This document shows positions 1-64,000 of a stretch of DNA of 64,000 nucleotides, piece by piece. The DNA comes from Pseudomonadota bacterium (lineage in GTDB: Bacteria; Pseudomonadota; Gammaproteobacteria; Steroidobacterales; Woeseiaceae): contig JAQCGO010000004.1 of the NCBI GenBank assembly GCA_027618995.1, positions 1 to 64,000 of the forward strand, written 5' to 3'. Both the position numbers and the translations under genes were made by a program. Positions within the stretch are counted from its first letter, which is position 1; every line of letters begins with the position of its first letter. The notes beneath the pieces were generated by a model that saw only the letters and a list, made by a program, of their open reading frames with translations, was not told the origin of the DNA and searched no databases.

Positions 1-272
1 TAGGATGAACAAAAACACTCTCTTAAACCAGAACTAATTCTGTCCCATAGGCGCTGACGTCATACACAATGCCGGTTCGCGAAATTGGGCGTCGTTCAAC
101 GTGCCGTCGGCGACGAACAGGCGGGAGCGCCACTTTTAGTGGATCGGGATTACCATGCTGTTGCAAAAAAAACGGCAGATTGCGATGCAATGCGGGGTTG
201 ATGGCGATGTGTCCCCAGAAAAGGTTGGGCTCGGTCAGCGCCGTTTACAGGACAAACTGACCGCCGAAAGGG
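1..272 (-). pseudogene. Putative esterase (alpha/beta hydrolase), 3' remnant
   Basis: Reading the minus strand downward from about 272, a hydrolase-like segment appears: a nucleophile-elbow-like SPFGGQFVL, a TAA codon at 245-247 where a Tyr is expected, then TALTEPNLFWGHIAINPALH. This is the region that follows the GxSxGG serine in IroE/putative-esterase proteins. The frame then shifts near 125-145 (into SRLFVADGTLNDAQFREPAL) and again near 62-72 (into YDVSAYGTELV). Only the C-terminal third of the family is present, and it begins directly after the stop of the next gene at 291, so a deletion removed the 5' part. The esterase call rests on motif resemblance; the loss of the reading frame is directly visible. 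Confidence 0.6.
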
Positions 273-290
273 CTCGGACCCCGGCTCGTT

Positions 291-818
291 TTAGTCTTCC
301 GTAAGGCGCGTTCTCACGACTGGCTCAAGTCCGGTCATTCCGGCGGATTTTCCATACGCCAGGGCATCCTCGTCGCTGGCACCGCGCAAACTTTCGCGGA
401 GAGCCAGCAATGCACCAACGCGATTGCCGCTGCCGCAGTGGACCAGGACGGGCCCCTCGTAGTCCGACAATATCTCGTCGAGATAGCGGGCGTTTTCCAT
501 GCTGATTGTGTCAGGGCTACTCAAGGGCAACACGATGTAATCGAGGCCGAGTTTTTCGAGTACGGCCGCTTCATCAAGCCCGCGGTCCTCGCTCTCACCA
601 CGCAAGTCAACGACAGCCTGGTAGCCCGCCTCTGCAAGCAGCTCAAACTGTTGTTCGTTGGGTTGCCCGGCGGAAGTCAGTCCGTCAACCGGCCGCAAAT
701 CGTCACTTCTCGTGACTGCGTTGATATCGACATGAATTCTCATGCTTTCCTCAGCCGTCGCTACGGACGTCAAATACAATGCGAGCAACGCGCTCAGAAT
801 AATTCCACGGTGCAGCAT
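291..818 (-). CDS. Exported CX4R phosphatase-like protein (DUF442/TIGR01244 type)
   Basis: This 175-residue protein starts with a signal peptide (about residues 1-22, ending ...TSVATA). The body resembles dual-specificity-phosphatase-like DUF442 proteins: an early LTSAGQP motif, an AVVDLRGESED segment, and a catalytic-loop motif HCGSGNR at about residues 127-133. The Cys-x4-Arg spacing is that of the DUF442/rhodanese-like group rather than the CX5R of classical tyrosine phosphatases, so the substrate is unknown. The export signal places it in the periplasm. It follows the lipoprotein gene by 8 bases and is probably in one transcription unit with it. The ATG at 818 is the natural start. Confidence 0.72.
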   Translation of the reverse strand: MLHRGIILSALLALYLTSVATAEESMRIHVDINAVTRSDDLRPVDGLTSAGQPNEQQFELLAEAGYQAVVDLRGESEDRGLDEAAVLEKLGLDYIVLPLSSPDTISMENARYLDEILSDYEGPVLVHCGSGNRVGALLALRESLRGASDEDALAYGKSAGMTGLEPVVRTRLTED

Positions 819-826
819 ATCGCCTC

Positions 827-4376: not shown

Positions 4377-5381
4377 ATGCACGAGCAGGACGATTCTTCG
4401 TCAATTGCCTACGCCAATCTTCAACCTGAGCAGATTATCGCGACGCTGGAGGGCATAGGTTACCGCTGTGATGGTCGATTTCTCGCGCTCAACAGCTATG
4501 AAAACCGGGTGTATCAGATCGGCATCGAAGACAATGTTCCCGTCGTTGCCAAGTTTTACCGGCCCGCTCGGTGGAGCAACGCAGAAATCATCGAGGAACA
4601 CGTTTTCGCAACGCAGTTGGCGGATGCCGAAATTCCGGTGGTGGCACCAGTCCCGCACCAGGGCTCAAGCCTGCTCACGGCCGGGCCCTTTCGCTTGGCC
4701 GTATATCCCTATCGTGGCGGCCGGGCACCTGATCTTGACGACTACGACCTGCTGCGTCAGCTCGGCAGGCTCGTCGCACGGATACACAACGTTGGCGAGC
4801 TGGAGACCTTTGCGCACCGCCCCACTATCGACATAGACAGTTACGGGACCGAGTCCCGCGATTTTCTGCTCGACAATGAATTCATTCCCTACGACCTGGA
4901 GGCCGCCTATGTAACTATCGTGGAGCAGGTTCTCGATGGCGTGGAGGCCTGTCTGTTCCGGGCCGGCGCGGTACGCCAATTTCGCATCCATGCCGATTTT
5001 CATCCAGGCAATGTGCTAGTCGCCAGGGAGCAGATTCACATTGTAGATCTGGACGATGCGCGAAGCGGCCCTGCCGTACAGGACTTGTGGATGTTCCTTT
5101 CCGGCAACCAGGACGAGCAGTCCCCGCAATTGTCGGCTCTGCTTGAGGGTTACCAGGAGTTTCGACGATTTGACGCGCGCGAGTTGCACCTCGTTGAGGC
5201 GCTACGCAGCCTGCGCATCATGCATTATGCCGCCTGGCTGGCACGGCGATGGAATGACCCGGCCTTCAAAACCGCTTTCCCGTGGTTTGCAGGGCAACGT
5301 TATTGGGACGAGCACATCCTGTCCCTGCGCGAACAGGTCGCGCTGATGCAGGAACCGCCCCTCGAATGGCGGCCGCGATAA
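4377..5381 (+). CDS. srkA: Stress response kinase A (YihE/SrkA family)
   Basis: A Ser/Thr protein kinase of the aminoglycoside-phosphotransferase fold that in E. coli counteracts stress-triggered death. The match to E. coli SrkA is strong along the whole length: LNSYENRVYQ, VAKFYRPARW and EEHVFATQLADAEIPVVAPV in the N lobe. The catalytic HADFHPGNVL corresponds to the family H-x-D-x5-N loop, with IVDLDDARSGPAVQDLWMFLSGN as the metal-binding segment. The start at 4377 has a nearby GGA; an ATG at 4356 is in frame and adds seven residues. In E. coli srkA is followed by dsbA, but here the next gene is an unrelated lipoprotein. Confidence 0.92.
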   Translation: MHEQDDSSSIAYANLQPEQIIATLEGIGYRCDGRFLALNSYENRVYQIGIEDNVPVVAKFYRPARWSNAEIIEEHVFATQLADAEIPVVAPVPHQGSSLLTAGPFRLAVYPYRGGRAPDLDDYDLLRQLGRLVARIHNVGELETFAHRPTIDIDSYGTESRDFLLDNEFIPYDLEAAYVTIVEQVLDGVEACLFRAGAVRQFRIHADFHPGNVLVAREQIHIVDLDDARSGPAVQDLWMFLSGNQDEQSPQLSALLEGYQEFRRFDARELHLVEALRSLRIMHYAAWLARRWNDPAFKTAFPWFAGQRYWDEHILSLREQVALMQEPPLEWRPR

Positions 5382-5520
5382 GATTGCCGCTTATTGATCT
5401 GTGGTCCGCGCCGCACTACAGTGAGCCTCTTGTGGATTTACCTCCTGTAGCGGAACTCTGTTGCCCCAATGTGCTCTGAATACGGGGATCGATCGTCGAG
5501 AATTTGCCGGATAATCCGAA

Positions 5521-7389: not shown

Positions 7390-8676
7390 ATGAACTGGAT
7401 CGCAAAAGCAAGCTGCTTGCCGGCCACCATTCTTGTTATTTGCACCGGCTGCAACGTGCCGGTGACGGAATCCGTCGCGGGCAACCAGCCGCTCACTTAC
7501 CAGGTCAGCTATACGGTTGTACCGCAGCCGCTCGAAGGCACGCTCGAGGTGCAAATGCGCGTGATTCAGCCCCGCCGACTGCTCAGGGAGGTGCGTTTTC
7601 CAACCGATCCACGAATCTCCGAGAGCATGGCGGACGGCGAGCTGCTTACGGCGGACAACGAAATAGTCTGGCATCCGCCCAAGACGGGAGGCACGTTGCG
7701 CTGGACCGTGAGCGTCGCAAGCCGTCGCAACGGCAACGGCTACGATGCCTGGCTTGCAGACGATTGGGGGCTGATGCGCGCGGAGGATCTCATACCCCGC
7801 GCGACAACTCGCGCCGTACGTGGCGCAGTCGGCAAGACGACATTGAAATTCAAACTGCCGGGCGGCTGGTCCGTTGTCACAGCATATTTCAACAGGAGCG
7901 GCACATTTTCGATCAACAAAGTCGAGCGACGATTCGATCAGCCGGATGGATGGATCGTGATGGGCCGACTCGGTATTCGCCACGAGACCATCGCCGGACT
8001 CCGCGTTTCCATCGCCGCACCGGTCGGTCACGCTGTACGTCGAATGGACATTCTCGCGTTACTGCGCTGGGCCCTGCCCGAGCTTGTTCGCGTAATACCG
8101 GATCTGCCGCGCAGGCTGACGATCGTCAGCGCAGGTGATCCGATGTGGCGTGGCGGACTTTCGGCACCACAGTCACTTTACATACATGCCGAAAGGCCGT
8201 TAATCAGCGAGAACGCGACCAGTACGCTGCTACACGAGGTTATGCACAGCACTCTGCGCCTTACCAGCAAGGCCGGTTACGACTGGATCGTAGAAGGACT
8301 TGCCGAATACTATTCGCTTGAATTGCTGCGACGCAGTGGCAGCATTTCGCAGGCACGGTTTAACATCGCGCGGAAGAATCAATTGCGTTGGTCAGAGTCT
8401 GCCGACAATCTGTGCCAACGCACGTCTAATGGTGCCGCAACGGCGCTGGCCGTCGTGGTCTTTTCAGAGCTCGACGCGGAAATTCGAGGCGCCACTGACG
8501 GGGCATTCTCGCTTGACGATCTGTTGCGACAATTGCACCGCAACCAGAAGCCGGTCGATCTTGCTTCGCTACTACAGATTTCGAAACAGCTGACGAACAC
8601 GAAATCGGACGTCTTGGAGATCGATAAGCTGGCGGGTTGCCGGAGTATCGTGTCGGGCGATCAGGAAAGCCACTAG
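7390..8676 (+). CDS. Predicted zinc metallopeptidase lipoprotein (gluzincin type)
   Basis: A 428-residue protein starting at ATG 7390 with a lipoprotein signal (LPATILVICTGC, Cys near residue 21). A peptidase-like site is seen in the C-terminal half: LLHEVMHSTLRLT carries HExxH at about residues 281-285, and VEGLAEYYSLELL about 20 residues later supplies the third zinc ligand Glu of an M1/gluzincin-like fold. The N-terminal half (TYQVSYTVVPQPLEGTLEVQMRV) looks like a beta-rich domain as in M1/M61 proteins. The substrate is unknown. It ends 4 bases before the broken AAA ATPase gene, so the two probably formed one operon. Confidence 0.75.
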   Translation: MNWIAKASCLPATILVICTGCNVPVTESVAGNQPLTYQVSYTVVPQPLEGTLEVQMRVIQPRRLLREVRFPTDPRISESMADGELLTADNEIVWHPPKTGGTLRWTVSVASRRNGNGYDAWLADDWGLMRAEDLIPRATTRAVRGAVGKTTLKFKLPGGWSVVTAYFNRSGTFSINKVERRFDQPDGWIVMGRLGIRHETIAGLRVSIAAPVGHAVRRMDILALLRWALPELVRVIPDLPRRLTIVSAGDPMWRGGLSAPQSLYIHAERPLISENATSTLLHEVMHSTLRLTSKAGYDWIVEGLAEYYSLELLRRSGSISQARFNIARKNQLRWSESADNLCQRTSNGAATALAVVVFSELDAEIRGATDGAFSLDDLLRQLHRNQKPVDLASLLQISKQLTNTKSDVLEIDKLAGCRSIVSGDQESH

Positions 8677-8680
8677 AGCG

Positions 8681-10171
8681 ATGGACAGCCAGCACGATCT
8701 TGCAGTTATCTTGCGTTCGCGTACTCCGATCACCGTAATCGAGACTCGCGACGAATCTCGCATCCTGGAAATGCTGTAAACCATTTCCCTGGCCGGTATC
8801 GGCCCGTCCTACATGCCATTGTTTCGATGGACTGTGACCGATGGCCTGCAACGGCTCGATATTGACCTCGAGCCGCAGACCATCAACTCTGCGCCGACTG
8901 ACGTGTTGAAACATATCAGGGCCGTCCAGAAACCGGGAATCTACGTCATGCTCGATTTCCATCCGTTTCTGGAAGACCCGGTTCACGTTCGAATGATCAA
9001 GGATATTTGCATTCGCTACCGGGAAATCCCGCGACAAATCGTGCTGATCAGTCATACCGTACAATTGCCTGGCGAACTGGACTCGTTCAGCGCTCGTTTA
9101 AATATGTCGTTACCTTCAGATGCGGAGCGTCGCAACATCGTCAAGAAAGTTGCGGATCAATGGGTAACCGAAAATCCGGGATCACGAGTGAAAGCCGATG
9201 CCAAGGCGCACGAGATGCTGATTCGCAACCTCGCTGGCCTGACCTACTCCGATACGGAACAGCTTGCGCGCAATGCGATCTTTGTCGACGGGGCCATTTC
9301 CAGCAGCGATCTGCCCGACGTAATGCAAGCCAAATACGAGTTACTGAACCGCGGTGGCGCTTTGCAATTCGAATACGACACAGCTCGCTTTAGCGACCTC
9401 GGTGGCATGGCGCGCCTCAAGGACTGGCTGAGTAAATGAAAATCCGTATTTGTCGGTGGTAGCAAAGTTGCCCACCTCGATGCACCCAAGGGAATCGTAC
9501 TGCTTGGTGTACAGGGCTGCGGCAAGAGTCTCGCCGCCAAAGCCACCGCCGGCATTTTTGGCGTGCCATTGTTGCGGCTCGACTTCGGAGCAATTTACGA
9601 CAAGTATCATGGTGAGACAGAGCGCAAACTTCGCGAATCACTGCCCACTGCCGATGTCATGGCTCCATGCGTCCTGTGGATCGATGAGATCGAAAAAGGC
9701 CTCGCCGGTCGTGGCGGAGAGACCGGCACAACGCAACGCGTCCTCCGAACCTTTCTCACTTGGATGGCCGAAAAGCAGAGTCAGGTTTTTGTTGTTGCTA
9801 CGGCCAACAATATTGACGCGTTGCTGCCGGAACTCGTCCGCAAAGGTCGATTTGACGAGATATTCTTCGTCGACCTGCCGGACGCCGCAAATCGCACTGA
9901 AATTCTGCGCATTCACCTGCGCCGACGTAACCATGACCCGGCCAATTTCGATATCGCCGAGATTGCGGTCGCGACCGACGGGTTCTCCGGCTCAGAGATC
10001 GAGCAAGCCGTAGTGTCGGCGCTGTACGCGGCACATGCGCTCGGCAAATCCCTCACCACCGAGCTCATACTTGCCGAGCTGTTGCTGACGCACCCCCTGT
10101 CCGTAGTGATGCGCGAACAAATCGAGGGATTGCGCCAGTGGGCAACCGGCCGGACCGTACCGTGCGACTGA
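8681..10171 (+). pseudogene. Ycf46-like AAA ATPase interrupted by two in-frame stops
   Basis: One continuous frame of 496 codons encodes a Ycf46-type AAA protein, but it holds TAA at 8777-8779 (codon 33) and TGA at 9437-9439 (codon 253). No shift of frame is needed to rejoin the parts. The N-terminal domain begins DLAVILRSRTPITVIET and later has PLFRWTVTDGLQR. Walker A is GVQGCGKS (about codons 276-283), Walker B is VLWIDEIE, and [15 protein letters not shown] follows as sensor/arginine-finger region. TAA and TGA are each one C-to-T change away from CAA and CGA; Arg or Gln would suit both sites. An internal product starting at 8813 or 9563 could be made but would lack a complete enzyme. Confidence 0.85.
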
Positions 10172-10255
10172 ATCGCGCCGCTGCGACTTGACGTAATGCC
10201 GGGTGTCGCCCCTGGCCGCAATTGCCTGACCCTGCCTTCATGGTGGTATGTGCAA

Positions 10256-11745
10256 ATGGCTAATGATAAGAAAAACATCAATGAATTAGTCACCGACGAT
10301 GATGACTCGACCGCCGAGATGGAGGCGATTGTATTGCAAGCGTCCGAATCGGACGTTGAGCTCGAATCCGCCTCCCACACAGTCGGATTCCATCACGGGG
10401 AAAACATTGATCCTGACGGTTATTCGGACATCTCAGCTTTGCGATTCGATCTGCGTGAGCGAGCCGAGACGATCAACCGACTCGAATTCGAAGTGGCAAA
10501 GCTGGACGCAAGGCGGCTTGGTCTCGAAGCCGAAACCGGGTCACGCGATGAGGCCAATAGTCAGCTGCGTACGGAGCTGGAGACTGCAACAACTTCGCTA
10601 ACGCGCAAGCAAGAACTAATAAAGAATCGCGACCAGCAGATCAAGTCGCTGCGACTCGAGATTCGCGAACGCAACGAGCAATTCCTCTCGTTGCAGCAGC
10701 ACTTGAAAGACATGGGGGAATCACTCACAGCCCAGGACAGCGATCCGGCAGCGGCCGGTGACCCACCGATGGCCTTGCAGAGTGGTCCAGCGTCGAGCAA
10801 CGGGGCTGACGTTCGCGAATTTCAGCAACGCTATATTCGTACCGAAAGTTACGCAGACCAGTTGCGACAGCAATTGCAGGATCGCGACGCCGACGCCAGA
10901 AGTAACAATAACTCGCGCGACCTGCTACAGCATGATTTGTTGCAGGCAAACGATAGGATTGCCGCCCAGACTCTGATTATTTCCGATCTCAATGCGCAGA
11001 ATGCGACGCTCAGCGCCACTCTTGCGGCACTGCATACCGCGCACGCCGAGGAGATTCGAATGGTCCGATTCGAACTGGGCGAAGCGCAGTCAACACTTTC
11101 GCAGCATGAGTTACTCACCGAGCAATTGGCCTCGGATCTGGTTGAGACTCGCACCTATCGTATCGAGCTTGAAAACATGCTCAATTCGAATGAGGAGAGC
11201 AACAAGTCACGGATCGAGAAGCTCGAGCAGGAGAACCGAAAACTGCGCCGTGAGGCGTCCGAATCGCGGCAGAAACTGGAGACCAAGAAAGTGGCTATCA
11301 ATTGCCTGATTTCCGAGCTCGCCAAGAAGTCGAATCGGCTCGATGTAACAGAGGACATGCAAGGGATGGTCGTTGAAAGCGACAACCGAAATTCCGATCG
11401 GGGTGACCACCACGGCCGGGCCGACCGCGACAAAATTACGCGGGTTTTGATTGGATCAATTGACGACCAGGAGGTGCGCTTTCCGTTGTTCAAGGACCGA
11501 TTGACAATCGGCCGACGGAACAGAACGACATTCAACTGAATGCAGCACACATCAGTCGCCGACACGCCGTGATCGTGTGCGAGGGTGGCGCCACACGCGT
11601 TATCGACTGGGGCAGCAAAAACGGCGTATTCGTCAATGCCAAGCGGATCACCGAGCACTTTCTCAAACATGGCGATGTTATATCGGTTGGCACCGCCGAG
11701 TTTCGTTACGAAGAACGAGCCAAACGCGACACGCGGGAAAATTAA
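10256..11745 (+). pseudogene. Coiled-coil FHA-domain protein, frameshifted in the FHA domain
   Basis: The ATG at 10256 opens a protein with a short acidic N-terminus, then about 330 residues of predicted coiled coil (repeated RELEV/KLDAR-type heptads, e.g. KQELIKNRDQQIKSLRLEI), and a C-terminal FHA domain for phosphothreonine binding. The frame breaks at 11514/11515: LTIGR is followed by RNRTTFN and a stop at 11537-11539. Restoring one base gives NDIQLNAAHISRRHAVIV, the FHA core with its SxxH-like motif, then DWGSKNGVFVNAKRI, and a natural stop at 11743-11745. A single-base deletion therefore removes the phosphopeptide-binding half. It sits just downstream of the broken AAA ATPase. Confidence 0.85.
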
Positions 11746-18344: not shown

Positions 18345-19169
18345 TCAGGGTCGTACTCGACGCTCAACACCGGTACTATCGAGTATTCTGCTTGCGATTT
18401 CTTCGATCGAAAATTCCGTCGTATCCACGCTTGGAATTCCGTAGCGCTTGAAAAGTTTGTCGGTTTCGCGCAGTTCATAACGCACCTGTTGCGCTGACGA
18501 ATAGTTACCCAGTGGCCGTCGTTCTTTTCGAATTTGTTGCAGGCGCACTGGAGCGATGGTCAGGCCGAACAGTTTGTGTTTCTGCTGCACAAGAACATCC
18601 GGCAGCGTGCCCGACTCGAGCTCCTCCTCGGTCAGCGGATAATTAGCGGCATAAACTCCGTACTGCAGCGCCAAGTACAGGCAGGTTGGTGTCTTACCCG
18701 ATCGCGAAACGCCAACCAGAATGACGTCTGCCATGTCATAGTTGCGGCTTACACCACCGTCATCGTTCGCCAGTGCAAAATTGGTTGCTTCGATACGTTT
18801 CATGTACGCGTTGATGTCGCTCATGCCGTGGGCTCGCCCCGGCTCATGTGATGGCTGGGCCTGCAACTCCTTTTCCAGGGGCTCCAGAAACACGTCGAAT
18901 ATATCGAGATGCAAGCCGTTGGCTTCACGTACGATGGCGCGAATCTGATCCTGCACCAATGTTGAGAAAACGATGGGGCGGTTGGCCTCCACGGCCGCCG
19001 CGGCATTGATTTTCTGCACTGCCGCCTTCACCTTGTCTTCGGTATCTATAAATGGCAAAGTCACTTGCCTAAATTGCTCGGTGTTAAATTGCGTCAACAA
19101 ACTGTGTCCCAGCGTCTCCGCAGTCACTCCAGTCTGATCCGAGAGAAAGTAAACCGTACGTTCATTTAT
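18345..19169 (-). CDS. ppsR: PEP synthetase regulatory protein (bifunctional kinase/phosphorylase)
   Basis: PpsR phosphorylates (ADP-dependent) and dephosphorylates (Pi-dependent) a Thr of PEP synthase. The body is intact: VTAETLGHSLLTQF, the P-loop-like GVSRSGKTPTCLYLALQYG at about residues 153-171, ANYPLTEEEL, and RYGIPSVDTTEFSIEEIAS near the end. The first canonical start is GTG 19127, but this would omit the conserved strand NERTVYFLSDQTG encoded just upstream in the same frame. Full length (274 residues, as in E. coli PpsR) requires initiation at ATA 19167-19169, a very rare start. So the start may be mutated and the gene impaired. Its target gene ppsA, divergently adjacent, is broken. 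Confidence 0.82.
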   Translation of the reverse strand: MNERTVYFLSDQTGVTAETLGHSLLTQFNTEQFRQVTLPFIDTEDKVKAAVQKINAAAAVEANRPIVFSTLVQDQIRAIVREANGLHLDIFDVFLEPLEKELQAQPSHEPGRAHGMSDINAYMKRIEATNFALANDDGGVSRNYDMADVILVGVSRSGKTPTCLYLALQYGVYAANYPLTEEELESGTLPDVLVQQKHKLFGLTIAPVRLQQIRKERRPLGNYSSAQQVRYELRETDKLFKRYGIPSVDTTEFSIEEIASRILDSTGVERRVRP

Positions 19170-19267
19170 GAGTAAGAATTCCAGATGCTGGTCGAAACAG
19201 GCATTTTGCTAATGTAAGTTCGGTCTCGATTGTCCATGTCCAGCGAGGGAACACAAGGGAGCTAAGA

Positions 19268-21426
19268 TTCGAATTATACGTTATCAAGCTGGCAGAACTT
19301 GGCATGCAGGACGTAGAGGTTGTAGGCGGCAAGAACGCCTCTCTGGGTGAGATGATCGGAAACCTGACCAGCCTGGGCTGAAATGTCCGGCGGGCGCGAC
19401 ATTGCCGTAGCCGTACGCTCCTCCGCGACTGCCGAAGACCTTCCTGACGCGTCATTCGCCGGGCAACAGGAGACCTTCCTCAATGTTCGCGGCCTGGACA
19501 ATCTGATTCTGGCAGCGCACCAGGTATTTGCATCGCTGTTCAACGACCGTGCCATTGCCTATCGGGTGCATCAGGGTTTCGATCACAGCCAGGTCACACT
19601 GTCCGTTGGCGTACAAACCATGGTGCGAAGTGACGTCGGTGCCGCTGGCGTCATGTTTACGCTGGACACCGAGTCCGGTTTTCGCGACGCCGTGTTTATT
19701 ACGAGCTCCTACGGGCTTGGCGAAACCGTTGTACAGGGCGCGGTCAATCCGGATGAGTTTTACGTCTACAAGCCTGCTTTGGTAAGCGGCAAATTCCCGA
19801 TTCTGCGCAAGAATCTTGGCAGCAAAGCCATCAAGATGGTGTATAGCAGCGATCCGACACCCGGTCGGACCGTCGATACCGTCGACGTGGAGCCCAGTGA
19901 AAGTCAGGTATTTTCGTTGAGCGACGACGACATAGTCGAGCTGGCAAAAATGGCGATGACCATCGAGGCGCGCTACCAGCGCCCGATGGATATCGAATGG
20001 GGCAAGGATGGCACAGATGGGCGACTGTATATTTTGCAGGCCCGACCGGAAACGGTGCAGTCACGCAGTGGCCGAACGATTCAGCGATTCACGTTGCAGA
20101 CACGCTCCAAGGTCATCAGCACGGGCCGAAGTATTGGCCGGAAGATTGGTGCTTGGCACGGCCAGGATAATGCGAGACGTCAGCGAGATGGATCGTATAC
20201 AGCCAGGCGACGTGCTCGTCTCGGACATGACCGATCCGGACTGGGAACCGGTAATGAAGCGTGCCGCCGCTATTGTCACAAATCGTGGTGGTCGGACCTG
20301 TCATGCGGCGATTATCGCGCGTGAGCTGGGGATTCCTGCTGTGGTCGGTTGCGGCAACGCGACCGAGCTCATCAAAGACGGCCAGGACGTCACGGTGAGC
20401 TGCGCGGAGGGCGATGAGGGGATCATGTACGAGGGTTGGTTGAATTTCGAACAAACGCAGATCGAGCTGGACTCGCTGCCCGACATTCCGGTCAAAATCA
20501 TGATGAATGTCGGCAACCCGGATCGCGCATTCGATTTCGCCAGCATTCCGAATCGTGGCGTGGGCCTGGCGCGACTCGAGTTCATCATCAATCGCATGAT
20601 CGGCGTCCACCCCCAGGCGCTGCTGAATTACGACAGCCTCGATGAGGCGACACGTGAGGCAATTAACGAGCAAATGGCCGGGTATGACGACCCGGTGACT
20701 TTTTTCGTGAACAAACTGGCCGAGGGTGTGAGTACCATCGCGGCCGCGTTTGCCCCTTATCCCGTCATCGTTCGCATGTCCGACTTCAAATCGAATGAGT
20801 ACGCCAACCTGATCGGCGGTGAGCGATACGAGCTGGACGAAGAAAACCCAATGCTGGGTTTTCGTGGCGCCGCACGATATGTAGCCGAAAGTTTTCGCCC
20901 TTGCTTCGAACTGGAGTGTGCGGCGATTCGACGGGTACGCAATGATATGGGATTGCGCAATGTGGAGTTGATGATTCCTTTCGTCCGCACGGTACGCCAG
21001 GCACGCGACGTGATCGCGGCGCTCGCGGCCAACGGCCTGGAACGTGGCAAGGACGGCCTCAGGATAATCATGATGTCGGAATTACTCAGTAATGCATTGC
21101 TGGCGGACCAGTTTCTCGAGCACTTTGATGGCATGTCGATTGGCTCGAATGACATGACACAATTGACACTCGGCGTGGATCGAGACTCCGCGCTCATCGC
21201 GGATTCATTTGATGAGCGCGATGACGCCGTCAAGGCGTTGTTGTCCATGACGATTGCTGCCTGCAAGAAGCACGGCAAGTACGTCGGCATTTGCGGCCAG
21301 GGGCCTTCCGATCACCCCGGCCTGGCGCTCTGGTTACTCGAGCAAGGCATCGAAAGCATATCGCTCAATCCGGATACCGTCGTAGAAACCTGGATGTTCC
21401 TCGCCGGCGAGAAGGCTGGCGACTAA
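19268..21426 (+). pseudogene. ppsA: Phosphoenolpyruvate synthase, degraded
   Basis: PEP synthase converts pyruvate and ATP to PEP, AMP and Pi. Three lesions are visible. First, after an AAGGGAG ribosome-binding site (19255-19261) the expected start codon position (19268) is TTC, followed by ELYVIKLAELG. Second, after [13 protein letters not shown] the frame stops at 19379-19381; the next matched segment, [23 protein letters not shown], is in another frame, and compared with E. coli PpsA about 70 residues are missing. Third, an extra T at 20153-20154 shifts the frame after [12 protein letters not shown] into [15 protein letters not shown]. The catalytic His segment [15 protein letters not shown] and the C-terminal [11 protein letters not shown] are preserved. 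No complete enzyme can be made. Confidence 0.93.
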
Positions 21427-22563: not shown

Positions 22564-23144
22564 TCGGCGAGTACCGCCGGATTCAGGAGCCGCTCGCGAT
22601 ACCACTTGAGTTCCGCGATTGAATCGCGAATATCAGATAAGGCGCGATGACTCGCTTCCTTGTTGAAACCGTTGGCTACCTCGGGCGCCCACTGTTGCGC
22701 GAGAATCTTCAGCGTACTGACATCCAGATTACGATAGTGAAAAAAACTCTCGAGTTGTGGCATTTCGCGAGCGAGGAATCGCCGATCCTGGCAAATACTA
22801 TTGCCGCACATTGGCGATTTGCCAATGTCGATCCACGCGCGAAGAAATTCGAGCATCTCGCTTTCCGCCTCGGCCGCCACGACAGTACTCATGAGTACGC
22901 GCTCAGTCAGGCCGGATTGCCCGTGCTGGCGAGTATTCCAGTCATCCATTGCATCCATCGTCAACTTCGACTGCCGGATTGCAACGACCGGGCCTTCGGC
23001 GAGTTCATTCAGGTTCTTGTCGGTGACGATAGTTGCGATCTCGATTATCGAGTCGCTGTTGGTATTCAATCCGGTCATTTCAAGGTCGATCCAGATCAGA
23101 TTTCCGGAGCGATCAATCGTTGTCTCGCCGTTGCTCATACTCAT
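22560..23144 (-). CDS. orn: Oligoribonuclease
   Basis: A 3'-5' exoribonuclease that finishes RNA decay by cutting dinucleotides, including pGpG from c-di-GMP. The DEDDh motifs are present: [19 protein letters not shown] and [12 protein letters not shown]. At 194 residues it is slightly longer than the E. coli enzyme (181) because of a leading [13 protein letters not shown]. It ends in an ATGA overlap with the GFA protein gene. The orn-rsgA divergent pair is common in gammaproteobacteria. Confidence 0.96.
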
Positions 23145-27099: not shown

Positions 27100-27153
27100 T
27101 CTTTCGAGAGGATCAGTGTATCGCACGAGCGGCGCGGAGCAAGCCCGAAGAGT

Positions 27154-27259
27154 GGCCCGCGCCAGCCACTCCCCGGCACCCGGCTTCGCCGCTGCCGCTG
27201 CTCCCTTCCGGGCCTGACGGGGTTCACGGTTGACCGTCGCGAGGAAGCCGACGCGGACC
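27154..27259 (-). ncRNA. ffs: Small signal recognition particle RNA (4.5S type)
   Basis: On the minus strand, the universal domain IV sequence is present: GTCAGGCCCGGAAGGGAGCA at about 27196-27215, including the GGAA tetraloop flanks and the asymmetric internal loop that binds Ffh. Ends were set by an 8-base-pair terminal helix: GGTCCGCG (27252-27259) against CGCGGGCC (27154-27161). The resulting 106-nucleotide RNA matches the 4.5S size. It sits directly upstream of dnaX, as in many gammaproteobacteria. The partner protein gene ffh is at 50-51 kb. Confidence 0.92.
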
Positions 27260-27306
27260 GGCGGCGATTATCGCTGCTACGTGATGGCAAAACAATGCGC
27301 GTGGCC

Positions 27307-27669
27307 TCATTCGATCTGCAATGACGGTACGAACACTTCCCTGCGGATCTGCAATTCACGCGAATACACGAGTTCGCCAGCAATATCGGTTGCGCAGGAA
27401 GTTCGGTCATCACCCAGGGTCATGAGTACGAACAGCATTTCCTCAAGGTTATTGGTGTGCTGCATTCGATAGCTGAGAACGGGCGTAGCTGCGAGATCGA
27501 GCACCGTAATATCCGCTTCCATACCGACCGCAATGCTGCCAATCCTGTCCTCGAGATACAGGGCTCGCGCTGCGCCGCGTGTGGCCAGGTAGTACGCGTG
27601 ATGTGCGCTGAGCGCATAGCCACGCAGCTGCGCTACTTTTCGAAATATTCGCCCGACCTTGTCGTATGA
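27307..27669 (-). pseudogene. guaD: Guanine deaminase, C-terminal remnant
   Basis: A single frame with no start encodes about 120 residues matching the end of GuaD: FRKVAQLRGYALSAHHAYYLATRGAARAL, then GMEADITVLDLAATPVLSYR, LFVLMTLGDDRT and AGELVYSRE before a natural stop. The amidohydrolase active-site half (zinc-binding HxH and Asp) is absent. The fragment joins the truncated DUF3313 gene near 27660-27675, so one deletion removed the 3' half of one gene and the 5' two thirds of the other. The remnant is not expressible as an enzyme. Confidence 0.85.
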
Positions 27670-27929
27670 AAACTGCGGCCACTTTCACCGCCCGGGCGAT
27701 ACTCTATTCCCACACCCTCCAGCATGACTTTCGAATAGGGCTCGATGTTAAAGCCAGGCCTGGCCCACGCTGCATCCATGCGTCCGCCCTTCACCGGATA
27801 CAATCCGTCAAAAGTTGCTTCCGCTCCCGTATCGATTGTCGGTGTTGACGTTGCGCATCCGGACAATGCGACTGCAGTCAGTCCAAGCGCAGTCAGGTGC
27901 AAAATAGATGGTTGAATTTTCGCTAGCAT
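27633..27929 (-). pseudogene. DUF3313-like lipoprotein, truncated
   Basis: The ATG at 27929 has an AGGAA nine bases upstream and encodes a lipoprotein signal (LTALGLTAVALSGC). The mature part begins FDGLYPVKGGRMDAAWARPGFNIEPYSKVMLEGVGIEYRPGGESG, the start of DUF3313-type proteins, which normally run to more than 200 residues. After about residue 87 the sequence turns into out-of-frame guaD sequence and stops at residue 98. The promoter and start look functional, so a short lipidated peptide may still be made. Confidence 0.75.
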
Positions 27930-28021
27930 GATTGTGTTTCCTGTTGTTATTTCTGACGATGTGGTATTCGATCGGGGCGATTCTAGTACGCAAATTCCTC
28001 TGGAATTACATCGGCACTGTG

Positions 28022-31182: not shown

Positions 31183-31203
31183 ACAGGGCGCAACGGAGCA
31201 TGA

Positions 31204-44895: not shown

Positions 44896-45242
44896 TCAGT
44901 TTGACTCCAGCGACAACAGCGTCGCGTTGCCGCCGACCGCCAAAATGTTGTTACTCACGGTGTACTCCGTACCAAACCTGGGCAGGTAATACGGCCCGCC
45001 TGCCTTGGGCCCGGTACCGGAGAGCCGCGCCCACCGAATGGCTGGACCCCGACGACGGCACCAATCATGTTGCGATTGATGTAGATATTGCCGGCCCCGG
45101 ATAGCACCGCGACCTTGCGTGCGCGCGAATCAATACGCGTGTGCAGACCCATGGTCAATCCGTAACCGGTCGCATTGATTTCAGCAATGGTTTTCATCAG
45201 CTTCTTGCCGCGATACCGCACGTGCAGAACCGGCCCGAACGC
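44896..45242 (-). pseudogene. putA: PutA (proline utilisation) C-terminal remnant
   Basis: Immediately after the sppA stop the minus strand reads FGPVLHVRYRGKKLMKTIAEINATGYGLTMGLHTRID, then GNIYINRNMIGAVVGVQPFGG. This is the end of the glutamate-semialdehyde dehydrogenase domain of PutA. A missing C near 45024 shifts the frame; in the new frame LSGTGPKAGGPYYLPRFGTEYTVSNNIL runs to a natural stop. About 110 of roughly 1,000 or more residues remain, without a start, so proline oxidation from this gene is lost. Confidence 0.9.
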
Positions 45243-47096
45243 TTAATGCAGATCACACAAACAGTGCCTGTAGATACCGTTCGGGTCATTGAAACGCAAC
45301 AAGCCGCCGGCTGTTTCGTCGATACGTTGTGCGATGCGGTTGATGAAGTCCGGCGTCCGGACCCAGCGCGACAGATCGAAACCCGCGCTCGCAGCAACGC
45401 CCAGAAAATCCACGATCATCTGTTCCGATGGCGATAGTTCCGGCTCGATCACGACCGTTCCGTACTCTCCTTCATCGAGCCCGGCCAATGCGGCCGCCGC
45501 GCTGATGGCGTCGTCGATGCCGCCCAGCTCATCCACCAAACCATTCTCAAGCGCTTCGACGCCTGTCCAGACCTGGCCTTGCCCAATGGCGTCGACGGCA
45601 CTTTTCTCAAGCCCGCGGCCCGCAGCGACGTCGCTGATGAAGTCGTCGTAGGTATCTTCAATAAACAGTTGAAACAACTGCTTGGTCTGTTCGCTCATTT
45701 CGCGATCCGGACGAAACTGTCCGGACCACGGCGTCGTACCGACACCGTCCGTCGTGATGCCGATCGTTTCGATGCTGCGCTGATACGTCGGGAACATGCC
45801 GAATACACCGATCGATCCCGTGATGGTCGACGAACTCGCATAAACCCTGTCCGCATGCATTGAGATTGCATAGCCTCCTGAGGCCGCAACACTGCTCATG
45901 GAAGCCACCACCGGTTTCCCGGCCTGGCGCAATGCCAGCACCTCATCGGCAATCACCTCGGCCGCGAAGGAACTGCCGCCGGGGCTATCGACGCGCAGGA
46001 CCACGGCGCTGACCGAATCATCTCCGCGTGCCTGCTGCAGCAAAGCTGCAGTGGAATCCGCCCCGATGACGCCTGGTGCTTGCTCGCCAAACAGGATGTC
46101 ACCAGAGGCAACGATGATGGCAACGTTCTGTTCCTGCGCGTCACCAACATCCAGAAAACGCATCTGCTGCAGGTAGTCGTACATGTTCGTCGCATTGAAC
46201 AGACCGGGGTAATTTTCGTCTTCGCCGACGTAATCGATCATGCGCTGCTGCATTTCGGTCCTGGTCAACAGATCATCAACCAATCCAAAATCACGCGCAG
46301 CGATTGCGACGTCACCACCCGCACGACTGACGTAGTCGATAAGATTCACGGCAAAATGATCAATCGAACCTTCTTCCAGACCGCGTGCCGCCACGACATC
46401 GTCGCGATACATTTGCCACATGCCATTGACCAGTCGCTCTGTGGCTGCCCGATCCTCCTTCGACATGTCGGTTCGTGTGTAGGGTTCGACGAATGACTTG
46501 TGGGTGCCCACCCGGAACACGTTCCAATCGATGCGCAACAGATCGATGGCATCTTTGTAATAGCTGCCGAATCGTCCATAGCCAAGAAACATTACACCGC
46601 CATTCGGATGCAGGTAGATCTCGTCGGCATGAGCAGCGAGAAAATAGCCTTGCTGGCCCATGAAATCCGCACTGGCCACAATCATCTTGCCGGAGGCTCT
46701 GAATGCAACCATGGCGTCCGCTATTTGCTGCAGCTTGCTCAGGCCCGCACCCACCAGGCCATTCAGATCAAGGAATACGACTTCGATGCGATCATCGTTG
46801 CTGGCATAGGCGAAGGCGTCGACAATATCCTGCACCGTCGTTTGCGGTTTGCCGTCACCCAGCAGAGCCGCGATCGCGCGGTCGTACGGATCGCCTTCGA
46901 GTTGCTCTACCAGTACTCCGTACGGTTCGATGATCAGCGCGGCGCCGGTTGGCATTACGACGGGTTCATCCGCGGCCAAACCAAAAAACAACAAAAAAAT
47001 AACCAGCAGCAACAGCAAATGCAAAATTTTGCGGATGCCGTCCAGGCCTGACCAGATCGCCGCCAGCAGACGCATGAACGGATTCCTCGTGCTCAT
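45243..47096 (-). CDS. sppA: Signal peptide peptidase SppA, 67K type
   Basis: A 617-residue inner-membrane Ser/Lys protease that degrades cleaved signal peptides. ATG 47096 follows a GGTGAGG. The N-terminal membrane helix is ILHLLLLLVIFLLFFGLAADE. The catalytic Lys is in the first repeat (RVGTHKSFVEPYTR) and the nucleophile Ser in the second (SMSSVAASGGYAISMHADRVYAS), as in E. coli SppA. The extreme C-terminus (IYRHCLCDLH) ends right at the putA scar, but the preceding NDPNGIY segment suggests the native end is kept. Confidence 0.93.
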   Translation of the reverse strand: MSTRNPFMRLLAAIWSGLDGIRKILHLLLLLVIFLLFFGLAADEPVVMPTGAALIIEPYGVLVEQLEGDPYDRAIAALLGDGKPQTTVQDIVDAFAYASNDDRIEVVFLDLNGLVGAGLSKLQQIADAMVAFRASGKMIVASADFMGQQGYFLAAHADEIYLHPNGGVMFLGYGRFGSYYKDAIDLLRIDWNVFRVGTHKSFVEPYTRTDMSKEDRAATERLVNGMWQMYRDDVVAARGLEEGSIDHFAVNLIDYVSRAGGDVAIAARDFGLVDDLLTRTEMQQRMIDYVGEDENYPGLFNATNMYDYLQQMRFLDVGDAQEQNVAIIVASGDILFGEQAPGVIGADSTAALLQQARGDDSVSAVVLRVDSPGGSSFAAEVIADEVLALRQAGKPVVASMSSVAASGGYAISMHADRVYASSSTITGSIGVFGMFPTYQRSIETIGITTDGVGTTPWSGQFRPDREMSEQTKQLFQLFIEDTYDDFISDVAAGRGLEKSAVDAIGQGQVWTGVEALENGLVDELGGIDDAISAAAALAGLDEGEYGTVVIEPELSPSEQMIVDFLGVAASAGFDLSRWVRTPDFINRIAQRIDETAGGLLRFNDPNGIYRHCLCDLH

Positions 47097-47208: not shown

Positions 47209-47853
47209 TCAGGAAGCGGGAACCAAGCACAGCGACAAACTCGGCCAGAAAGTGATGAGAATAACAGATATCAGCAGAATCATGAGGAACGAAAACGTCG
47301 CGGAATACACGTGCATAATCGGTTTCTCGAATCGGTAGCTCGAAATAAACAGATTCAGGCCTACGGGTGGTGTCAGGTATCCAAGTTCCATCGCCGCGAG
47401 AAAGGCGAAGCCGTAAGCATACAACTGATCCGCCTGTTTTGAATTGACCTGTTGCAAGCTGGCCACGAACGCATCGTAAGGGAGGCCGCGCCAGTTACAG
47501 GATGCGGCGAGGGTCATGCACATCGCCTGACCCGGGTATTCCCGGGCGCGCCGGGTAAGCCGTTTCGCGCGTGCCGGGTCATCCGCAAAAACGCTGCCGT
47601 AAGACGCATACATCGTCGCAGCCGCAGAAAGGATAGCTGGATTGTCCTCCTCACCCTGCAGGAAGCTGTCGAGCAATAGTATGTATGACGGCATGCCGGC
47701 GCGGACCAACGCCGGATCATCCTGGTTGAGAATTGCGCCGGTCTGGTTGTTGCCGAAGGAATCGGCTGCTTTTGAGACGAAATGCGAGCAGCCAACCAGC
47801 AAGGGGTTCGCAACAATCAGCACCACTACGACGATCGCCTTTTTCATGCCCAT
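47209..47853 (-). pseudogene. In-frame chimera of TatT lipoprotein and DctM permease end
   Basis: The first about 155 residues are a TRAP-transporter-associated TatT lipoprotein (signal VVVVLIVANPLLVGC; ATMYASYGSVFADDPARAKRLTRRARE; ADQLYAYGFAFLA). They continue without a stop into the C-terminal 60 residues of a DctM large permease (ELGYLTPPVGLNLFISSYRFEKP plus a final membrane helix). The rest of tatT, probably dctP and dctQ, and most of dctM are missing. A large deletion kept the frame by chance, so a 214-residue membrane-anchored chimera may be made. TRAP transport is lost. Confidence 0.85.
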
Positions 47854-51423: not shown

Positions 51424-52191
51424 CTAAACTGTAAGGACCTTGCCTCGCGACAGCATTTGTATGTTTCGATCGGGTGCGGCCTCGGTCACCTGCCGAAGAA
51501 TCTCCGCCTCTTCCCCCGGTTTCATGCCGGTCAGCCAGATTTCCGGGTTGTGCCGCAGTCGTTTAAGGTCACGCGTCAAAGTGCGGGGACAGTAATGACC
51601 GGACTCGCTTGCCAGTCGCTCCATTTCATCCGGGAACGAAACTTCAATGACGAGTACCCGCAGGTCATCGCAGGCATTCAATACCGGCTACAGGGTTTCA
51701 TTACTCTTCGTGTCTCCGCTGACCGCGAAAGCACCGCCGGAATTTCGCACGGTGTAGCCGAGCGACGGCACACTGTGCATTACATCAACGGCGTAGAAAT
51801 CGCGATGATCGATCCGAATCGTGTCCCCGGGGCTGCAGACCCGGTAGCGCAGCATCGGCCTTTCCGGTGTCGGCAATTTCGCGAAGTCCGGCCAGATGAC
51901 ACCGTTGAACAGATGTTCCTGAATCGCGCGCAGGGTCTCTTCGAGCGCGTACACTGTGAGCGGAACGGTGAAGTTCTCGTCGAAAACTCGATCGACGAGC
52001 ATGGGCAATCCCGCGATATGGTCCAGGTGTGCATGCGTCAGGAAAACATGCCGGATTGAGTCCAGATCGGCTAATTCGAGGTCACCAATCCCGGTTCCCG
52101 CGTCGATCAGAACATCGTTGTCGATGAGCATGGCTGATGTGCGTGATCCCGCGCCGATGCCCCCGCTGCAACCTAAAATTCGTATACGCAT
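51424..52191 (-). pseudogene. Class II cyclic-nucleotide phosphodiesterase (metallo-beta-lactamase fold), nonsense codon
   Basis: A 255-codon frame for an MBL-fold 3',5'-cyclic-nucleotide phosphodiesterase (PF02112 type). The zinc motif is FLTHAHLDHIAGLP (about residues 50-63), followed by FYAVDVMHSVPSLGYTV and FAVSGDTKSNETL. A TAG at 51688-51690 (codon 168) then replaces a codon, most simply TGG, before PVLNACDDLRVLVIEVSFPDEM, and the frame continues to a natural stop at 51424. The truncated product keeps the first His cluster but loses the later ligands. One G-to-A change explains it. Confidence 0.85.
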
Positions 52192-55998: not shown

Positions 55999-56486
55999 TT
56001 GACTCCAGATAAAAGGCAAAAGCATAACCGGCTGATTGCGCTGAGTTTTGCCAGCGTACTTCTGCTACTCGTCTACGGTCCACTGGCACAGTGGTTCGTG
56101 GCTGCCGATCGCCTGTTATATGACAACCTCGCATCGCACCTGCCCCGCCAGCCGCTCGGCAACGCCTTCATAGTCAGCATCGATCCTGCCAAAGCCGACC
56201 CAGAGTCGTTGATCAACACTTATGGCAACGTCGTCAACGTGCTGCAAAACGGCAAGGTGAGACGCATCATCATGACAGAGCCGCCGAAACTCGCGGGCGA
56301 CCGGGCGTTCAGGTTGCGGCCATTACGCGACGTGCCGAGGGTTATTACATTGTGCATGTTGAATCCGCGAAGGAAGGCGACTACCCGCTTGTAAACGGTC
56401 AGGCGATCGGCCCGCAGGCGCGAAAGCTGAGCGATAACGATGTGGTGCAACTGGCCGGCGTCAAGATGGGGTTCTTCAAGTCCTAA
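55999..56486 (+). pseudogene. CHASE2/FHA-type membrane protein, internally deleted
   Basis: A TTG start after AAAGGGA encodes RLIALSFASVLLLLVYGPLAQWFVAADRLLYDNLASHLPRQ and then AFIVSIDPAKADPESLINTYGNVVNVL, the N-terminal membrane helix and first part of a CHASE2-like sensor domain. After PPKLAGD the matching sequence stops; in another frame RPGVQVAAITRRAEGYYIVHVE leads to YPLVNGQAIGPQARKLSDNDVVQLAG, an FHA-type C-terminus ending at 56484-56486. The middle of the protein is gone and the frame is shifted. Its last 4 bases overlap alr, convergent. Confidence 0.75.
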
Positions 56487-61124: not shown

Positions 61125-61266
61125 TGTGCTCCCTTTCGGTTGAAATCCGGCCGGCTGCTTCGCCATTCCGACAAAGCACCCCTTCAGATTACAGCCACCC
61201 GGCTATCCGGTGTGGCAAGAGGTTACGGTCCGAAGACCGCCCCGGTATAGGACGGGGACGCGCATC

Positions 61267-62049
61267 CTACCCGTTACTACCCGGGGACGCAAGCCGGGGG
61301 CGCCGTTGGCGGACGATCTCGTAGAGGCAAATTCCGGCTGCGACAGAGACATTCAGGCTCGATACGGCGCCCGCCATCGGCAGGCTGACCAGCGTATCGC
61401 AACGGGCCATGATTCCCTTGCCAAGACCACTGCCCTCCTGGCCCATGACCAGAACCAGGGGTCGGTCCAGATCCGTGTCGTAGAGCGACTGTGTGGCCTT
61501 GTCGGTGGTGCCGACGATGGCGACTCCGTAATCCGCGAGCCAGGCTAGTACACGCCCCAAATTGCCAACCTGGGCGAATGACATGTGTTCGGCAGCGCCC
61601 GCCGCAACCTTGCTGACTGTCGGGCCTAGCGATGCCGCCCCGTGGCGCGGCACGATCACCGCATCGACCCCTGCCGCGTCAGCCGTTCTCAGGCAGGCGC
61701 CGAGATTGTGCGGGTCCTGCACACCGTCGAGCATCAAGAGCAACAACGGTGCCGCCGAATCGCCGAGCCGTTCCTCGACCAGGGTGCGGAGGCTGGCCTC
61801 ATCGAGCAATGTGCTACGACGCACTTCGGCGACGATGCCCTGGTGGCGCGATTCGCGACTAATTTGCTGCAGGCGCGCCCGGTTTGCCGGTTGAATCTCG
61901 ATCCCGCGGTTGTTTGCTTCGCTGATGAGCGCTTCGACGCGGGGATTGGTTGACTGATACTCGGCAAAGATGCGCTGTACCGCCGATGACTTGTTCGCCA
62001 GCAACTGTTCCACCGCGCGTAATCCAGTGACGTAGTTTGCCTTGCTCAT
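61267..62049 (-). CDS. rlmB: 23S rRNA (guanosine-2'-O)-methyltransferase RlmB
   Basis: Methylates G2251 of 23S rRNA. SPOUT motifs: LLLLMLDGVQDPHNLGACLRTADAAGVDAVIVP, LVLVMGQEGSGLGKGIMARCD and VSLPMAGAVSSLNVSVAAGICLYE. Length is 260 residues. It overlaps rnr by 4 bases, the rnr-rlmB order known from E. coli. The 142 bases before rpsF hold only a promoter region. Confidence 0.96.
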   Translation of the reverse strand: MSKANYVTGLRAVEQLLANKSSAVQRIFAEYQSTNPRVEALISEANNRGIEIQPANRARLQQISRESRHQGIVAEVRRSTLLDEASLRTLVEERLGDSAAPLLLLMLDGVQDPHNLGACLRTADAAGVDAVIVPRHGAASLGPTVSKVAAGAAEHMSFAQVGNLGRVLAWLADYGVAIVGTTDKATQSLYDTDLDRPLVLVMGQEGSGLGKGIMARCDTLVSLPMAGAVSSLNVSVAAGICLYEIVRQRRPRLASPGSNG

Positions 62050-64000
62050 CGCGAGTTCCGTGCACCTTCCGCAGCCACGGGCCGAAAGTCGATGCGCCGG
62101 GTGTCGAGATCCACGCGATGTACGCGCACTCGCATTGCCTCGCCTAACGAAAAGGCTTTGCGCGTACGTTCGCCAATCAGGCGCTGCGAACCCGACTCGT
62201 AATGGTAGTAGTCGTTTGCAAGACTGGTCACGTGCACCAATCCGTCGATCTGCAATTCCGTGATCTGTACAAACAAGCCGAAATTTGTAACGCCGGTGAT
62301 CACGCCGGCAAATTCTTCGCCAACATGATTCTCCATGTACTCACATTTCAGCCAGGCTTCCACATCGCGCGTTGCCTCCTCGGCACGCCGCTCGTGGGCT
62401 GACGTGATAGTTCCGAGGCGTTCCATTTCACCGGCACCATAGGAATAACGCCCCGGCTTGCCGCCGCGGACTATGTGCCGTATTGCCCGATGCACGAGCA
62501 GGTCGGGGTAACGCCGTATCGGCGAGGTGAAATGCGCATAGGCGTCCAACGCGAGGCCAAAGTGACCAATGTTCTGCGGTGTGTACTCAGCGTGTGTCAG
62601 GGAACGCAACATCGCCATCGATATGGCCGCGCTGTCGGGCCGGCCCTTGACCTGCGCGAGCAAATCATTGAACTGGCGCGGCACGACATGCTTCGGATGC
62701 GGCACCTTCAGTCCCAGCGAGAGCAGATACAGGCGCAACTCGTCGAAGCGATCGACATCGGGCTTCGGATGCACACGGTACAAGCCAGGTATCTTGTTCT
62801 TGCTCAGAAATTTCGCGGCCTGCACGTTGGCCGCAATCATGCACTCCTCGATCAGTCGATGCGCATCGTTACGGGCTTCGACCTTGATTCCGACGATGGA
62901 GCCATCCTCGCCGAGTTCGAACTTGGTCTGCGGCAGATCAAGTTCAATGGCACCGCGACGTTGCCGCACAGTCGCAAACACCTTATACAGCGCATGCAAC
63001 TCGTTAATCACGGGCTGCAGGGCCCGCGGCACGGATGAGTCCGATTTGCCTTCGAGAAAATCACCGACCTGGGTATAGGTCAGCCGCGCCGACGAGCGCA
63101 TCACGGCCTCGGCAAACTTTGCGCGCGTCACCTGGCCGTCACGGCCGACGCGCATATCGCACACCATGCATAGCCGGTCGACTTTCGGATTCAGCGAACA
63201 CAGGCCGTTGGACAAAACCTCGGGCAGCATCGGTACCACACGGTCCGGAAAATACACCGAGGTACCGCGAAGGATCGCCTGCTTGTCCACGGCCGATCCG
63301 ACCTGCACGTAGTGCGCCACATCGGCGATAGCAACCAGCAAGCGCCAACCGTCGCCGCTGCGTTCGCAAAAAACTGCATCGTCAAAATCCCGCGCATCTT
63401 CGCCGTCAATCGTGAGCAGATCGACGCCGCGCAGGTCCAGGCGATCCTTTTTCGCGGCCGACGGCACGTCCACACCAAAGCTCTTGATCTCGTCGCGCAC
63501 GGCTTTCGGCCACTCTGTCGGGATTGAGTGCGACTGGATGGCGATATCGGTCGCAATACCTTTTTGCTTGGGATCGCCGATGATGCGGACGATGCGCCCG
63601 GTTGCCTGCTCAACCTGAGATGGGTAAACGAGGATCTCGGCAACGACGATCTGTCCGGGGCGAGCTTTATTCGATTCGCCGGACGCGATCAGGATGCGAT
63701 GCGCGATCCTGGCGTTGTCAGGAATCACGAGTCCGATGCCGCGTTCACGAATAAACTGGCCGGCAATCTCGCGGACACCGCGCTTGAGAACCTCGACTAG
63801 CTTGCCCTCGGGCTTGCCGCGCCGGTCCTCGCCAATGATTTTGATCGCGACACGGTCACCGTCGAAGACCGAACGCATTTCGCGCGCCGACAGGTAAACA
63901 TCGTCGCCACCATCGTCTCTAACCACGAAGCCGAAGCCATCGCGATGGCCGCTGACTACACCGGCCAGCAGATCCAGCTTGGCCATCAGGCAGAATTCAC
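62046..64000 (-). CDS. rnr: Ribonuclease R, 5' end outside the window
   Basis: A 3'-5' exoribonuclease that degrades structured RNA. The visible 651 codons run from the cold-shock domains (LLAGVVSGHRDGFGFVVRDDGGDDVYLS) through the RNB catalytic domain with its acidic motif TIDGEDARDFDDAVFCE, to ALDAYAHFTSPIRRYPDLLVHR and the S1 domain (FAGVITGVTNFGLFVQITELQIDGLVHV). The frame stays open past the ATG at 63986 to the window end, and the N-terminal helix-turn-helix of RNase R is missing, so the true start lies beyond 64000. The Lys-rich C-terminal tail of E. coli RNase R is also short here. Confidence 0.93.
   Translation of the reverse strand, partial: EFCLMAKLDLLAGVVSGHRDGFGFVVRDDGGDDVYLSAREMRSVFDGDRVAIKIIGEDRRGKPEGKLVEVLKRGVREIAGQFIRERGIGLVIPDNARIAHRILIASGESNKARPGQIVVAEILVYPSQVEQATGRIVRIIGDPKQKGIATDIAIQSHSIPTEWPKAVRDEIKSFGVDVPSAAKKDRLDLRGVDLLTIDGEDARDFDDAVFCERSGDGWRLLVAIADVAHYVQVGSAVDKQAILRGTSVYFPDRVVPMLPEVLSNGLCSLNPKVDRLCMVCDMRVGRDGQVTRAKFAEAVMRSSARLTYTQVGDFLEGKSDSSVPRALQPVINELHALYKVFATVRQRRGAIELDLPQTKFELGEDGSIVGIKVEARNDAHRLIEECMIAANVQAAKFLSKNKIPGLYRVHPKPDVDRFDELRLYLLSLGLKVPHPKHVVPRQFNDLLAQVKGRPDSAAISMAMLRSLTHAEYTPQNIGHFGLALDAYAHFTSPIRRYPDLLVHRAIRHIVRGGKPGRYSYGAGEMERLGTITSAHERRAEEATRDVEAWLKCEYMENHVGEEFAGVITGVTNFGLFVQITELQIDGLVHVTSLANDYYHYESGSQRLIGERTRKAFSLGEAMRVRVHRVDLDTRRIDFRPVAAEGARNSR

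Follow-up and report, generated by a model that had tools for sequence, protein, structure and literature searches.

The window analysed here comprises positions 1-64,000 of contig C21 (128,038 nucleotides long) of the bacterial genome G000, a 2.54-Mb draft in 76 contigs that is 97.4% complete. Comparison with collinear genomes of the same genus gives us high confidence that G000 is undergoing reductive evolution on its own branch: curation identified 18 lost or broken genes among 73 flanked genes of the window, and all 18 have a counterpart in the sister genome G018. The dominant process is the deletion of blocks of 0.4-5 kb, often with breakpoints inside genes. Core genes across 1..64000, among them dnaX, recR, suf, rplS-trmD-rimM-rpsP-ffh, radA, alr, dnaB, rplI, rpsR and rpsF, are kept open.

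Gene order around the lesions is conserved in the genus

The 24 congeners used for comparison (G001-G024) range in size from 1.5 to 5.1 Mb and in completeness from 64 to 100%; among those listed at 97% completeness or more, the G000 genome is the smallest. A scan with SufB placed G000 closest to gammaproteobacterial metagenome-assembled genomes (MAGs), two of them labelled Woeseiaceae among the best 80 matches; on this basis we regard G000 as Woeseiaceae-like. A tree built from SufB, C, D, S and the FeS_assembly_P protein identified G018 as the sister of G000 with 94% support; G003 and G010, both of 1.5 Mb, fell in a clade apart from G000. Gene order in the window is that of G022, G014, G009, G018 and G020 wherever their contigs cover it, so that the lesions of G000 can be read against intact copies in five congeners.

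Genes lost or broken in G000 are intact in its relatives

The genes counted were those of G009 that have a conserved counterpart in one or more of the other relatives and lie between intact collinear genes. In this count, which like the matched control below is automated and still includes artefact rows, 52 of 146 genes are non-intact in G000 (14 broken, 38 absent), as compared to 8/123 in G014, 6/105 in G022, 3/45 in G018 and 2/45 in G020. With G014 as reference, non-intact genes number 45/133 in G000, 2/123 in G009, 6/97 in G022, 2/45 in G018 and 0/44 in G020. The matched control considered the 88 genes assessable in both G000 and G022: 28 lack an intact copy in G000 and 2 in G022, with discordant genes split 27 to 1. 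The view of the original prediction, made from the window's sequence alone, that genes have been lost is supported. Genes broken by the rule number 14/146 in G000 versus 2/123 in G014 and 2/105 in G022; four of the 14 were judged artefacts, and three genuinely broken genes were scored otherwise by the rule.

For the window itself, 22 automated non-intact calls were reduced by five that we judged artefacts or weak, and one missed frameshift (in an FHA-domain gene) was added. The five dropped rows are a shadow open reading frame (ORF) over dctM, coverage-threshold calls on GFA and rpsF, a 105-amino-acid (aa) ORF, and a 173-aa gene matched at full length in G014 only; rpsF is flagged by the same threshold in G018 and G020 and was judged to be without lesion. 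A guaD fragment and a TAXI-type receptor, which are not at this place in G009, lie outside the curated 18 and come on top of them. Because every curated loss has a counterpart in G018, these genes were lost on the branch of G000 itself. The converse, that the relatives gained these genes and G000 is ancestral, we regard as close to negligible: nothing was found in its favour, remnants persist at the junctions, and most of the lost genes are present across the tree in G018, G009, G014, G020 and G022.

Sequencing, assembly or binning error is a very improbable source of the lesions. The genome is a draft in 76 contigs, raw reads were not used and some lesions involve single bases, all of which could admit error; against this, the flanks brought together by the multi-kilobase deletions are collinear with five congeners, the premature stops include all three codons (TAA, TGA and TAG), and genes with deletions (ppsA, putA) carry additional indels. 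Moreover, congeners processed in the same way have 0-7% non-intact genes when regions are pooled, with up to 2/15 in one region.

Point lesions and block deletions at individual loci

Ten of the eleven lesions named in the original prediction are present in the sequence, namely those in the AAA ATPase, FHA-domain, ppsA, guaD, TAXI receptor, bcp, putA, tatT/dctM, phosphodiesterase and kinase-FHA loci. We could not find the eleventh, in an esterase: throughout their conserved part, the ORFs that were compared ahead of 8.7 kb have open frames, and they are collinear with relatives. Eight losses had gone unnoticed (kbl, tdh, dctP, dctQ, PP2C, PPK2, DUF938 and a glutamine amidotransferase), and the claim that all affected genes serve metabolism, transport or signalling fails for bcp, an AhpC/TSA peroxiredoxin, and for the missing DUF938 gene.

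Four genes carry premature stops or frame changes. The AAA ATPase pseudogene (8633..10168, plus strand) carries two in-frame stops, TAA at 8777-8779 and TGA at 9437-9439, where the G018 counterpart is a 514-aa open frame. In the FHA-domain gene that follows (10178..11742, plus strand), a frameshift at ~11515-11518 falls where the FHA domain begins; its G018 counterpart is one open frame of 559 aa. The ppsA pseudogene (19226..21414, plus strand) has lost 68 codons, corresponding to residues 61-128 in G018 numbering, and shows a second frame change at 20153-20155. Of 15 congeners searched, 13 have an open gene of the usual ppsA class, and G003 and G010 have no match; no second match of this class was found in G000, where two lower-scoring family members remain. 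Lastly, the predicted phosphodiesterase is a metallo-beta-lactamase/PDEase_II-like (MBL) gene (51427..52191, minus strand) with TAG at 51688-51690, and only a 33-residue remnant of it is present in G003 and G010. Recoding of these in-frame stops, or readthrough, is barely credible. In its favour, the AAA and MBL frames are well conserved around the stops; set against this, three different stop codons are involved, replacing Arg twice and Trp once, and other genes carry frameshifts and deletions. On the diversity of stop codons we rejected recoding.

Larger deletions left remnants at four places. Of bcp (31183..31308, plus strand), just short N- and C-terminal pieces are left, with longer copies in relatives, G003 and G010 included. 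The putA remnant (44899..45242, minus strand) comprises residues ~956-1070 of 1070, or ~115 residues, and contains a frameshift; at the adjoining deletion point (45243..45380), most of putA and all of kbl and tdh are gone, and the interval is 5.1 kb shorter than in G018. The best PDB matches of the kbl and tdh products are 2-amino-3-ketobutyrate CoA ligase and L-threonine 3-dehydrogenase, a threonine-catabolic pair, and none of the 11 Aldedh matches in G000 is a frame of PutA length. At 47209..47853 (minus strand), TatT up to ~186 is joined in frame to DctM from 361, giving a 214-aa chimera; dctP and dctQ (the latter label assigned from position only) were also removed, and the interval is 3.1 kb shorter than in G018. 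The chimera has a lipoprotein-like N-terminus and could still be translated. Finally, at 56011..56483 (plus strand) the N-terminus of a Ser/Thr kinase is fused to the C-terminus of an FHA protein, the collapsed remains of a cluster of kinase (697 aa), PP2C (285 aa) and FHA (307 aa) genes, 3.5 kb shorter than in G018. The original prediction had taken this real scar for a CHASE2/FHA gene; CHASE2 gave no hit at E<=1e-6.

Three further genes are gone without any remnant noticed. A class-I glutamine amidotransferase (GATase) of ~264 aa, present in G018, G011, G009 and G022, is missing at 5379..5520, where the interval is 805 bp below its length in G018; the three minus-strand frames looked at held no remnant that we noticed. 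A DUF938 gene (221 aa in G009; also in G018, G014, G022 and G011) is missing at 22564..22584, a site 622 bp shorter than in G018. Polyphosphate kinase 2 (PPK2; 317 aa in G009), present in G018, G019, G013 and G022, is missing at 27151..27310.

Deletions dominate and several point lesions are recent

Relative to G018, the right half of the window shows four shortenings of more than 300 bp, totalling 12.1 kb, and no gains of that size; the left half shows two shortenings (1.4 kb). Overall, the collinear DNA of G000 is 27-29% shorter than that of G009, G014 and the sister's right half, 20% shorter than that of G022, and 6% shorter than the sister's left half. Among the relatives, the net length difference from G009 is at most 0.8 kb for G018, G014 and G020 (0.2 kb for G018), and G022 is 4.6 kb shorter than G009.

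For four broken genes, protein branch lengths in G000 and its sister are nearly equal (AAA 0.152/0.162, FHA 0.453/0.434, ppsA 0.103/0.108, MBL 0.084/0.084), which indicates that their inactivation is recent. Several of the short deletion remnants have evolved faster in G000 (G000/sister: putA 0.266/0.114, FHA2 0.141/0.023, tatT 0.295/0.203, dctM 0.083/0.062), and the kinase remnant has evolved more slowly (0.298 versus 0.449). Intact genes show a mild difference, with the G000 branch longer in 37 of 52 genes (mean 0.204, sister 0.165). The description of this reduction as early is correct only in part: several genes with point lesions show no excess divergence, while much collinear DNA has already been lost relative to several relatives.

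Loss extends to other contigs and spares core genes

Three of 20 other fetched stretches of G000 (on contigs C5, C30 and C1) were compared, making four contigs with the window. Non-intact genes number 7/25, 17/29 and 6/18, respectively, where the one 'broken' gene of the 6/18 stretch (region D) is an edge effect at the end of the fetched stretch. Regions B-D gave 38 non-intact rows, of which 20 were run against Pfam. Missing genes or remnants include those for methylmalonyl-CoA mutase, a carboxyl transferase, a TonB receptor, a peptidase S51 protein and a Mur-ligase-like protein, the last two of which we read as putative cyanophycin enzymes; two-component proteins and regulators are also absent or reduced to remnants.

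The claim that loss is non-random and spares core genes is borne out, with loss on all four contigs compared and, among the curated window losses, none of 22 core-labelled genes affected versus 18 of 51 others (P=0.0007, the labels having been assigned after the results were seen). Such sparing is what purifying selection predicts. That labelling is one of several points that weigh against ongoing reduction on the G000 branch as we describe it. The single-base lesions are unproven one by one, the sequence having been taken from the assembly without raw reads. The G018 dctP alignment carries one stop, though it passes the intact rule, and in the left half of the window one interval is 1.0 kb longer in G000 than in its sister. 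A short similar sequence on both sides of the tatT/dctM junction in relatives is only suggestive of short-homology recombination. Lastly, G000 shares with G003/G010 the loss or breakage of putA, kbl, tdh and the MBL gene, and this sharing is chance-like: 4 losses common to 9 and 12 (P=0.39) among the 34 genes of the shared span, hand-counted without the shadow ORF and the weak 105-aa ORF. With that overlap we rejected a convergent loss order with G003 and G010.

A mechanism consistent with these observations would have deletions arising by short-homology or illegitimate recombination, and tolerated because selection had relaxed after the niche narrowed. Selection would have relaxed on the catabolism of proline and threonine, on gluconeogenesis and TRAP-type uptake, on the storage of polyphosphate and perhaps of cyanophycin, and on Ser/Thr-kinase/FHA signalling. 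Purifying selection would meanwhile hold core genes intact.

The cause of reduction: niche shift or host

The original prediction offered host restriction or a narrow niche as the cause of reduction; the narrow niche fits the data, and host restriction found no support. A recent symbiont decaying by drift after a bottleneck strikes us as rather unlikely. Pseudogenes, the small genome relative to near-complete congeners, slightly faster protein evolution and the loss of catabolism and signalling would all be expected of it. However, rve matches are not raised (4 in G000, 0-7 in nine congeners, with 0 in the sister, rve being the only transposase family tested and drafts undercounting repeats), and the GC content of the window (0.569) lies within that of the relatives' regions (0.548-0.645) and close to the sister's (0.575). 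Ankyrin repeats are absent from G000, and dapA and suf genes are kept in the window. None of rve expansion, GC shift or ankyrin repeats, all lacking here, excludes a host by its absence.

Three more specific proposals were rejected: decay driven by insertion sequences (IS), as rve is not raised over the congeners as a group, though G018 has none; an autotrophic symbiont, as G000 has no match to the RuBisCO large chain; and an ankyrin-rich symbiont signature, of which G000 has none. Ank_2 matches number 22 in the sister G018.

Free-living or particle-attached niche narrowing, comparable to the divide between benthic and pelagic Woeseiaceae, stands in our judgement evenly balanced. PMC12175321 reports mean sizes of 3.1 Mb for Woeseiaceae MAGs from sediment and 1.7 Mb for those from the water column; given this published difference, a move to another free-living niche is no less probable a cause than a host. 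The 1.5-Mb genus-mates G003 and G010 are in line with such narrowing. FlhA is missing in G000, and that paper reports flagellar genes in most sediment MAGs; however, 9 of the 15 congeners searched, including some large ones, lack FlhA as well. Also against it, G000 keeps mla genes, found mainly in sediment genomes according to PMC12175321. In G003 (contig C12) and G010 (contig C46), mla, sdaA, putA, kbl and tdh are missing from the collinear span, and bcp and TRAP genes are kept. These two genomes, in their other clade, apparently shrank separately from G000.

Relation to known reduced genomes

Reductive evolution in G000 is real, cleanly displayed and still under way; it is of a known kind, and the comparative setting is unusually good. 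Like the early- to mid-stage reduced symbionts described in PMC5091035 (Sodalis, Serratia symbiotica), G000 combines numerous broken genes with a genome smaller than those of its congeners; one Serratia symbiont described there has 550 pseudogenes in 2.8 Mb, 60% of the size of its congeners. Unlike them, G000 has more absent than broken genes (38 versus 14 by the rule), shows neither an rve-type IS burst nor a GC shift in the window, and has no known host. The benthic/pelagic split concerns what, to judge by the names of two close records, is probably the same family, and likewise involves smaller genomes in one niche (PMC12175321); G000 differs in its intermediate size and in losses that are still in progress. 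A search of the main text of that paper gave no match to 'pseudogene' or 'streamlin', and among the listed literature results, judged by titles and the beginnings of abstracts, none dealt with genome reduction or pseudogenes in Woeseiaceae.

Genome reduction has mostly been viewed after its completion, or in insect symbionts. Here, one genus offers collinear genomes of 1.5-5.1 Mb, a sister with intact versions and scars that are still legible in G000, so that the order of loss, deletion size and the part played by IS can be tested directly in a system other than insect symbionts. In free-living streamlining of the SAR11 type, regulation and catabolism are lost by deletion with few IS, and pseudogenes are few. 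G000 resembles this pattern in what is lost, in loss by deletion and in few IS; it departs from it in its frequent remnants, which are at odds with few pseudogenes, and in its unchanged GC content. We tentatively entertain, though with some doubt, a deletion-first reduction in a heterotrophic and possibly never host-bound lineage, without IS spread or AT drift, in a genus reduced at least twice independently (G000; G003/G010). If this were true, multi-gene excisions would take whole functions before point decay accumulates, and the genus, with genomes from 5.1 down to 1.5 Mb, would provide a natural series of replicates.

Additional features of the window

The intact genes retained in the window include those for the PF03618 kinase/pyrophosphorylase, dapA, suf and mla. 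The first of these (18348..19208, minus strand), which we take to have the role of ppsR, adjoins the broken ppsA, its likely target; the pair (18348-21414) thus presents an orphan regulator.

The guaD and TAXI lesions lie together. At 27310..28064 (minus strand), a deletion scar, a C-terminal guaD fragment (27310-27684), matching residues 344-438 of a 439-aa guanine deaminase, lies beside the N-terminus of a lipoprotein-like ORF (27636-28064). The DUF3313 label of the original prediction has no Pfam hit at E<=0.001, and the fetched regions yielded no relative of either piece. In the TAXI-type solute receptor (27990..29250, plus strand), the lipoprotein-like signal peptide and the mature domain are in different frames, with the change near 28.1 kb, and the G018 receptor is an open 419-aa frame. 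The region containing both (27310-29402) adjoins tRNA-Ser (29272-29362), and the matching interval differs in length among relatives, at about 4 kb (G022), 9 kb (G009) and 10 kb (G014). Its contents apparently differ among these three genomes, and it may be an exchange spot.

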